A DNA stretch of 40,616 nt, from NCBI GenBank assembly GCA_902583345.1, contig CACHVT010000009.1, forward strand, positions 1 through 40,616, given 5' to 3'. A program made the position numbers and the translations under genes. Source of the DNA: an uncultured Pelagibacteraceae bacterium. GTDB lineage: Bacteria > Pseudomonadota > Alphaproteobacteria > Pelagibacterales > Pelagibacteraceae. Below the pieces are notes generated by a model. That model saw only the letters and a program-made list of their open reading frames with translations, did no database searches and had not been told where the DNA came from. Below, piece after piece: positions 23,751 through 25,786 of this stretch (its first letter is position 1; each line of letters opens with the position of its first letter).

Positions 23751-23794
23751 ATGGTGAGCCGTGTTGGACTCGAACCAACGACCCATTCCTTAAA
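23751..23794 (-). repeat. displaced 3' half of tRNA-Lys (attachment-site remnant)
   Basis: These 44 bases match 25710-25753 exactly. They hold CCA, the acceptor 3' strand, the complete T arm and the anticodon 3' stem, and identity stops at the first anticodon base. Beyond it the minus strand still shows ATTC-TTTAA-GGAAT, an imperfect version of the tRNA's ATTCC-CTTTTAA-GGAAT inverted repeat. Tyrosine recombinases that use tRNA anticodon loops leave this kind of footprint. It cannot fold as a tRNA. Confidence 0.85.
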
Positions 23795-24063
23795 GAATAC
23801 TACACAACAAAGAAAATTCCAGTTAAAAACAAAAAAACCTTCATTTAACGTTCGTATGGAGGGTTTAGAATTGAATAAATGAGTAAAATTTCAAATATAA
23901 AACTGTACACTCACTGTACACCTTAAGTTTTAGAAATTTAAAAAAAGTGTTTAGTTTTTGGATCTTCAGAATTTTTTTCAAGTGTTTAGAAAGTGTACAG
24001 TTTTTTGTTGTGTAAGTCCGTGCAGAGGAATTGCTTGCTGAGTAGATTCCTGATCACCCCACC
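23795..24063. other. non-coding island end with direct and inverted repeats
   Basis: No convincing coding frame exists here on either strand. CTGTACAC occurs directly repeated at 23903-23910 and 23914-23921 and inverted at 23993-24000. AGTGTTTAG occurs at 23946-23954 and 23981-23989. TACACAACAAA at 23801-23811 is matched by its exact reverse complement at 24004-24014. AGGAAT/ATTCCT (24026-24031 and 24046-24051) can form a hairpin just after the helicase stop. Repeats beside a tRNA-type core site are typical of arm sites bound by phage integrases, which is the working interpretation; a structured 3' untranslated region is the alternative. Confidence 0.6.
23831..23866 (-). terminator. Rho-independent-type terminator
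   Basis: On the minus strand AAACCCTCCAT (23866-23856) pairs with ATGAAGGTTT (23844-23835), leaving one bulged base and an 11-base loop, and a run of seven T follows (23837-23831). It would end transcription from the PIF1-like helicase gene about 200 bases after its stop, or end a small RNA starting in that interval. Confidence 0.55.
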
Positions 24064-25575
24064 CTAGTTATTTTTCATAAGATACATTATTCGTTCTCTG
24101 ATTTGAGTAAGGCTTTTCTTTAATATTTTAGCTAAAGCAAATTCTGGTACATTTCTTTTATAAAGCGCTAAAAGTTTATTATCATCACTAGTTGTCCATT
24201 CATTGCTATTTGATTTACTGGATTTAGGCATTATTTTTTTTTTACTTTTAGGTGCATTTTTTAATATTTCACTTATGTATTTATTTTCTAATTTTTGACC
24301 AATAAATTCAAGTACTCTAGCATCAAAAATAATATCTTTTTTTTGTATTTTCTTTAAAAGTGAAATACCTTCTAACGATTTTGCTCTACTTAAAGCCACA
24401 TAAGTTTGACCGTGTGCAAATGAACCTGTGTCTAAATCAATAGAAACATTGTCAAATGTCTGACCTTGTGATTTATGAATAGTTGTAGCCCAAGCAAGTT
24501 TCAAAGGAAATTGTATAAATGATCCAACTGAAAATGCATTTACTTTATTACCACTGAATTTATAATTATATTTATCCCATTTTGTTTTACCTAATGAAAA
24601 AATCTTGTCTTTAATTTTTATCTTAATTTGATCTTTGGATAAAAAGGTTATTATTCCTAATGTCCCATTTACCCATCTTTTAGGTTCGTCTGTATCATTT
24701 TTGGTTATCATAACTTGTGCACCTACTTTTAAAACAATCTCTTTTTTAACTGGGTGTTCTTTATCCTTCCAAGACCCTTTTACTATTGCATTATAATTAA
24801 AGGTTGGAGTTGTTAATTTATATAAATTAGTATTATTTATATCGTCAACTTTTCTATTAGTTGGAGCTAATATAATGGTATCTTTTGGAACTTCTTCTCT
24901 ATTGATTAATTGATTATTTAAAATAGATAAATCCTCATTTTGTAATTTATTCATCCTTATTTTATTTAATAAGTTGACAAATTTTTTATCAGATTGTCTA
25001 AAAATTTTAGTAAGTTCAATTTGTTTAAAATCTTTTTTAGAATAAGATTTAGAGTTGAAAAAGAAAGGTCCATTTGGATAAAACTTTTCCATTACTTCAT
25101 CATCTGACCCAACTATAGGATCTATTTGCATAACATCACCAAATAATACCATTTGAACACCACCAAAAGGTTTGTCATTTTTACGATTTTTTTTTAATGA
25201 TAGATCAATAGCATCAAATAAGTCTGCTCTTACCATTGATATTTCATCAATTAAAATTGTATCTAAATTTTGTATAACTTGTTTATCTCTTAACTCTTTA
25301 ACATCATCTTTCCCCAAAAAATGTGGACCTAATTTGAAGAATGAATGAATAGTTTGTCCTTTAGCTTTTATTGCTGTGATGCCTTGAAATGCTAATGTTG
25401 CAAAATTTTTATTTGTATTTTGACGGAAATACTCAAGTAGAGTTGATTTACCTGAGCCTGCCTTACCAGTAATAAATAAATTTGTGTCTGTTTGATTTAT
25501 TAAGTCAAATGTATCTTTAAATTCTTTTGTTAATACAAATTTCTCTGGTAATTCTGTTCCTGTATCTAATTTCAT
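24064..25575 (-). CDS. PIF1-like SF1B DNA helicase with C-terminal SANT/HTH-like tail
   Basis: A 503-residue superfamily 1B helicase. Walker A is GKAGSGKS at 37-44, followed by the PIF1-type LAFQGITAIKAKGQTIHSFF near 61-80, Walker B LIDEISMV near 108-115, FGDVMQIDP near 147, and the motif V/VI region WATTIHKSQGQTFDNV with VALSRAKS near 385-415. The central SH3-like insert (VKGSWKDKEHPV to GAQVMITKNDTDE) is usual for PIF1/RecD2 relatives. The last 45 residues (EWTTSDDNKLLALYKRN...) resemble a SANT/Myb-like or HTH DNA-binding tail attached to many bacterial PIF1-like proteins. These enzymes unwind 5' to 3' and can resolve G-quadruplexes or R-loops. It is the only gene of the island. Base composition does not differ clearly from its neighbours. 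Confidence 0.9.
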   Translation of the reverse strand: MKLDTGTELPEKFVLTKEFKDTFDLINQTDTNLFITGKAGSGKSTLLEYFRQNTNKNFATLAFQGITAIKAKGQTIHSFFKLGPHFLGKDDVKELRDKQVIQNLDTILIDEISMVRADLFDAIDLSLKKNRKNDKPFGGVQMVLFGDVMQIDPIVGSDDEVMEKFYPNGPFFFNSKSYSKKDFKQIELTKIFRQSDKKFVNLLNKIRMNKLQNEDLSILNNQLINREEVPKDTIILAPTNRKVDDINNTNLYKLTTPTFNYNAIVKGSWKDKEHPVKKEIVLKVGAQVMITKNDTDEPKRWVNGTLGIITFLSKDQIKIKIKDKIFSLGKTKWDKYNYKFSGNKVNAFSVGSFIQFPLKLAWATTIHKSQGQTFDNVSIDLDTGSFAHGQTYVALSRAKSLEGISLLKKIQKKDIIFDARVLEFIGQKLENKYISEILKNAPKSKKKIMPKSSKSNSNEWTTSDDNKLLALYKRNVPEFALAKILKKSLTQIRERIMYLMKNN

Positions 25576-25709
25576 AATCCCATCTAATAAAAAGACACGT
25601 CTTATTTACTAGATATACCCGCCCAAACCACACACTCAACCTACACTACTTTTGAAAAATAATTAAGAGTTAAAAGAATGGGGTATTTCAGCCATTAAAT
25701 GGAAATTCA
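25576..25709 (-). promoter_or_regulatory. upstream region of the PIF1-like helicase
   Basis: This 134-base spacer is less AT-rich than other gaps here. It holds a short inverted repeat AAGAC-AC-GTCTT (25592-25603) 17 bases before the helicase start, in a position suited to an operator. A C-rich stretch on the plus strand (about 25618-25645) is also present. No clear -35/-10 pair can be assigned. Confidence 0.3.
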
Positions 25710-25710
25710 A

Positions 25711-25786
25711 TGGTGAGCCGTGTTGGACTCGAACCAACGACCCATTCCTTAAAAGGGAATTGCTCTACCAACTGAGCTAACGGCCC
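25711..25786 (-). tRNA. tRNA-Lys (UUU), CCA encoded; island attachment site
   Basis: The minus strand begins GGGCCGT at 25786 and ends ACGGCTC-A-CCA at 25711 (76 nt). The anticodon arm is ATTCC-CTTTTAA-GGAAT with anticodon TTT, and the T arm is GTTGG-TTCGAGT-CCAAC. The acceptor stem has one G·U pair. Its 3' 43 bases are duplicated at 23752-23794, which identifies it as the integration target. Confidence 0.97.

Follow-up and report, generated by a model that had tools for sequence, protein, structure and literature searches.

The locus described here raises the question of how a copy of the 3′ part of a tRNA-Lys gene came to lie about 2 kb from the intact gene with no recombinase gene between the two, and whether the intervening DNA is, or ever was, able to move. 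SAR11 are among the most abundant of ocean bacteria and have streamlined genomes with few known mobile elements. The stretch examined (G000:C9, the window hereafter; 40,616 nucleotides) is a contig of a 1.13-Mb SAR11 (Pelagibacteraceae)-type genome, in which the gene order around the island is recG-like, DUF502, M48 peptidase, island, tRNA-Lys and tgt. Both flanking host genes, the M48 peptidase (22913-23740, + strand; PF01435) and tgt (25837-26949, - strand; PF01702), are syntenic in relatives. A single intact tRNA-Lys(TTT), the attB gene, was called by ARAGORN at 25711-25786 (- strand), and the remote copy was not called as a tRNA.

The first-pass annotation had reported that the tRNA-Lys 3′ part recurs as an exact copy of 44 nt, and had read this as an integration footprint. 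The repeat is present as reported, positions 23751-23794 and 25710-25753 (both - strand) being 100% identical and 1,959 bp apart, and as an exact repeat of 44 nt that ends in a tRNA anticodon it cannot have arisen by chance. The first of the two is the host-side part at the attachment junction adjoining the M48 gene, found at the same position in relatives; the second is the element-side part, which restores the gene at the crossover. Identity had been said to stop at the first base of the anticodon; the repeat does end inside the anticodon, although the 44 nt take in all three of its bases. In nine other islands which keep the remote copy, the block common to both tRNA copies reaches TTAAAAG in the anticodon loop, a run in which the window has one A fewer; with this base missing from its attachment core, the island may be excised less readily.

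The interval itself consists of two end modules with cargo between them. The distal end module (23795-24053) carries ACTACACAACA at the crossover, a tandem pair of CTGTACAC (23903-23910 and 23914-23921; 11-nt spacing), an inverted GTGTACAG (23993-24000) and a closing TTGTTGTGTAA, and thus includes the CTGTACAC repeats that had been described from the letters. It is followed by a cargo junction box, CTAGGGTGGGGTGATC (24052-24067, - strand), which overlaps the stop codon of the cargo gene and whose counterpart in sister islands ends in GATG and supplies the ribosome-binding region for the cargo gene that follows. The cargo is a PIF1-family superfamily 1 helicase of 503 aa (24064-25575, - strand; PF05970, E=3e-28), the one large ORF of an interval that had been claimed to hold a PIF1-like helicase without a recombinase; indeed no recombinase gene was found in the window interval or in the sister islands. 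The proximal end module (25576-25709; conserved part 25626-25707) abuts the tRNA-Lys and is 89% identical to a sister-based query and 94% identical to its counterpart in island L009.

The distribution of filled and empty sites was examined using the tRNA-Lys 3′ part as probe, which matched 227 of 300 same-genus genomes; those with two copies, eight of the 300, were examined further. Except in G136, where they are on two contigs, both copies share a contig at a spacing of about 1.8-2.3 kb. Among the fetched regions, 25 Pelagibacter genomes have an empty M48-tgt interval of 134-187 nt with one tRNA-Lys, which rules out a tandem tRNA-Lys array, whilst at least eleven sites are filled by an integrase-less island, most with cargo other than that of the window. 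Ten islands are complete with both tRNA copies (the window, L009, L011, L020-L023, L056, L059 and L060), with a tRNA-copy spacing of 1778-2435 bp, a narrow range that the search did not impose, since double copies were sought without a distance limit. Beyond these ten are L010, which has lost its distal end, the split island of G136 and the decayed L140-L142; L124 (G301) and L011 are one and the same sequence. The locus therefore shows a flanking repeat of the tRNA 3′ part, an intact tRNA on one side and empty sites in relatives, as a site-specific tRNA-gene element does, and the footprint claimed in the annotation is borne out by these 25 empty and at least eleven filled sites. The integrase that an autonomous element of this kind would encode is the missing part. 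Of the carriers, three bear AG- names, which we read as those of single-cell genomes, and G155 is 99% complete and in three contigs; a binning artefact is thus unlikely. In a family-level scan of 217 genomes from 14 genera the distal module was restricted to this genus.

Evidence that the islands have moved comes from the helicase. It was found in one of 201 same-genus genomes, its relatives being Pelagibacteraceae genomes, and it is 97-98% identical at the amino acid level in three other islands (L009-L011). The helicase genes of these four hosts are 95.0-99.8% identical in nucleotide sequence and 86-100% at fourfold sites, whereas tgt and M48 of the same four genomes are 73-77% identical in nucleotide sequence and 32-49% at fourfold sites; between L010 and L011 all 155 fourfold sites of the helicase agree, and yet the two have different types of proximal end. 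A near-identical helicase despite such divergent flanking genes indicates that the integrase-less form itself moves and, judged from these sequence identities, has been transferred horizontally. A helicase inherited vertically at a fixed locus, the reading against which the annotation had proposed looking for empty sites, is not what was found: relatives include empty sites and the helicase has spread between lineages.

The cargo and the ends are also modular. The distal ends of the window and L020 (G026) are 98% identical, whereas the former carries the helicase and the latter an EcoRI-family endonuclease (PF02963, E=2e-102) together with an N6/N4 methyltransferase (interval positions 372-2148). 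Similarly, the proximal end of L010 is 98-99% identical to those of L056 and L060, whose cargo differs. Sel1 proteins are found in L056, L059 and L060, that of L056 being 95% identical to that of L059 despite lying at a different position between different ends, and the remaining cargo comprises a PDZ protein (L023), a MORN protein (L009) and unknowns. A cargo box, TAGGGTGGGGTGATG, stands at the start of several cargo genes and closes the last gene in some islands; among 151 genomes it is confined to the islands of G000 and G061, and it is possibly a point of cargo-gene exchange.

A search of related phages and islands for an integrase with a matching attP had been proposed. IMG/VR, scanned with the tRNA 3′ part, contains L123, a T7-like pelagiphage prophage that occupies the same tRNA-Lys next to M48, comprising the host M48 end, half a tRNA-Lys, arm repeats, a 430-aa tyrosine integrase, a terminase and a portal; its junction shows that the attB is common to the islands and the candidate helper. 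A related free-phage contig, L122, has an integrase 87% identical to that of L123, an attP of GTTGTGTAAATTGTTAAAAGTAACTTACACAAC and a separate complete tRNA-Lys, a layout of short core plus phage tRNA-Lys that is of the predicted tRNA-dependent lysogeny type. The att-to-integrase leaders of both phages are colinear with the distal ends of the islands. The best pair, the distal module of L060 and the leader of L122, aligns from the crossover onwards with 64% identity over 227 nt (E=2e-15; local z=20.5, anchored global z=12), and the leader of L123 aligns with window-type distal arms at an anchored z of 4.7-7.1 (window 5.3), the L123 matches being modest by plain local scoring (window z=3.5). 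The columns that do not vary are the core-adjacent ACACAACA, CACT/TACAC (the tandem GTACAC pair) and AAAAGTGT. The leaders of the more distant phages L117 and L118 gave z values of -1.1 to 3.1 against the islands, leaving two phage contigs with clearly matching leaders; the type-B islands (L022 and L059) match both poorly, and window-type and L022/L059-type islands may use different helpers. Alignment thus demonstrates that the distal arm is homologous to the attP-integrase leader of these phages, whilst any resemblance of the proximal arm to the left arm of the phage is weak and falls short of significance (best z=2.5).

As an observation on the phages themselves, L117, L118 and L122, all IMG/VR pelagiphage contigs, have an intact tRNA-Lys(TTT) adjoining the tyrosine integrase and a separate short TTAAAAG attP core between inverted repeats, an arrangement which places tRNA-dependent lysogeny architecture outside the actinophages.

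From these results we propose that the islands are probably non-autonomous mini-islands whose attP is of phage type and which the integrases of infecting tRNA-Lys pelagiphages move in trans, and that the window interval is most likely one member of a SAR11 family of such integrase-less mini-islands. That an infecting phage supplies the integrase, acting in trans, is what we infer from the 300 genomes, in which the L123 integrase has no close relative and one at 25% identity, and from the window's own genome, in which one tyrosine recombinase is encoded, on another contig. In INPHARED the L123 integrase had no match and that of L122 distant matches only, and eight extra TTAAAAGNNNNTTACACAACA contigs held no related integrase. 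Each island would comprise a distal arm that descends from, or has a common ancestor with, the attP-integrase leader of tRNA-Lys pelagiphages, one to four exchangeable cargo genes, a proximal arm and then the copy of the tRNA-Lys 3′ part. A tRNA-Lys-specific phage would infect and supply the integrase and perhaps an excisionase, upon which the island would be excised at the TTAAAAG anticodon-loop core and travel with the phage; in a new host, strand exchange in the anticodon loop would integrate it and its own 3′ half would restore an intact tRNA-Lys. Because the tRNA 3′ part is included in the islands, the tRNA gene can survive the insertion of a 2-kb element. That the islands are replicated and packaged into phage particles, perhaps as multimers, would be our guess, modelled on the concatemers of PICMI (PMC10803314). 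Searching IMG/VR directly for islands or a circle junction returned the prophage L123 alone, a GTACACTNACYGTACAC viral scan gave 11 contigs, none island-like beyond short matches, and neither an excised circle nor a packaged copy nor a virion contig bearing an island turned up in the viral scans.

The annotation had left two readings side by side, a satellite moved by a helper and a remnant of a larger element, and it is the satellite-type reading that is better supported, on account of the near-identical helicase islands in divergent hosts, the cargo swapped between near-identical ends and the alignment with phage leaders. The remnant reading would have the islands be tRNA-Lys pelagiphages decayed by deletion to att arms and a few genes and now immobile. 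The homology of the distal arms to phage att-integrase leaders would follow from it as well, the attachment core of the window is a base short, and L140-L142 are islands decayed into a fixed locus: G208, G271 and G358 have a decayed proximal end, lack the distal module and carry a 648-aa TPR/GT41 gene, these loci being apparently domesticated. Nevertheless this origin is unlikely for the family, since four divergent hosts carry near-identical integrase-less helicase islands, near-identical ends enclose different cargo, sizes fall within a narrow range, and phage structural genes were not seen in the islands. At L140-L142 themselves, the TPR/GT41 gene (O-GlcNAc transferase-like) stands at the tRNA-Lys locus beside the decayed island end.

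Cassettes could instead be exchanged at this one locus by transformation or transduction followed by homologous recombination through the ends, the tRNA and the flanks, without a site-specific recombinase. Recombination across conserved ends could indeed swap cargo, and in nine of the ten islands the tRNA half on the host side is identical to that on the element side (L009 differs at two compensating positions), the halves always matching the host acceptor-stem allele, so that the alleles give little independent proof of an element-derived half. We consider this quite improbable all the same, as the flanks are highly divergent, which leaves the short tRNA as the sole homology at an empty site, and as the ends correspond to phage att leaders, arm-site repeats included, at a tRNA that also serves as the attB of L123. 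Mobilization by a host or other non-phage recombinase, such as Xer or the integrase of another island, is very unlikely: host genomes do encode a tyrosine recombinase and XerCD-using satellites exist, but the anticodon loop that serves as the crossover is also the site of action of the pelagiphage integrase, and the phage has matching arm repeats.

In their reliance on a relative, the proposed islands resemble CIMEs, which consist of cis-acting sites and cargo and have their recombinase supplied by an ICE. CALIN and MITEs likewise combine cis-acting recombination sites with cargo alone and take the recombinase from a relative (PMC11389934). However, CALIN, MITEs and CIMEs depend on integrons, transposons and ICEs, respectively, whereas the sites of the islands match a temperate phage attP and target a tRNA anticodon loop, a crossover which argues against membership among integron cassettes or CALIN. 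With PICMI, PICI, P4-like elements and PLE the islands share small size, site-specific chromosomal insertion, accessory or defence cargo and an apparent dependence on a helper phage; these satellites are said to code for integrase and excision factors of their own, and PICMI115, at 6.1 kb with int, alpA and prim, to be the smallest with characterized activity (PMC10803314). In the islands, by comparison, which measure about 2 kb, neither a mobility gene nor a regulatory one was found, nor were any of the integrase, replication and regulatory core genes by which PICI, PICMI and P4-like elements are defined (PMC10803314). Tycheposons and additive tRNA islands are similarly tRNA-associated cargo with repeated tRNA ends in streamlined aquatic bacteria, but tycheposons are described as 4-200 kb with a tyrosine recombinase (PMC10872708), and the islands are about 2 kb without one. 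The same attB logic in tRNA-Lys-TTT is seen in Boilgate, whose attP holds a 43-bp tRNA 3′ half as in the islands, and Fionnbharth, which has a 10-bp core and a phage tRNA-Lys as in L122 (PMC10865867), although both are actinophages of other hosts and encode their own integrase. Charybdis elements, which are likewise small, marine and mobile and vary in their accessory genes, were rejected as an identity, being about 4.6 kb with a conserved structural module, archaeal hosts and other gene content (PMC12324425). No description of these tRNA-Lys islands was found in a limited literature search, and one may exist elsewhere.

If the proposed reading is true, divergent SAR11 lineages would have a simple means of exchanging genes, an integrase-free carrier of about 2 kb for restriction-modification, helicase and unknown genes, and the described minimum for phage satellites would be lowered. 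A fuller version, for which we would claim no more than a tentative standing, has them as phage satellites of about 2 kb without any mobility gene, built from a helper attP, a tRNA patch and swappable cassettes and excised, copied and packaged (perhaps as about twenty-mers) wholly by tRNA-Lys pelagiphages, a one-locus vehicle for SAR11 gene exchange. The helper-phage prediction is concrete and open to testing.

Small inserts between M48 and tRNA-Lys were also seen in L026, L033 and L036; these have no half tRNA, stand outside the island count, and hold short ORFs, namely two similar ORFs of 121 aa and one of 296 aa.
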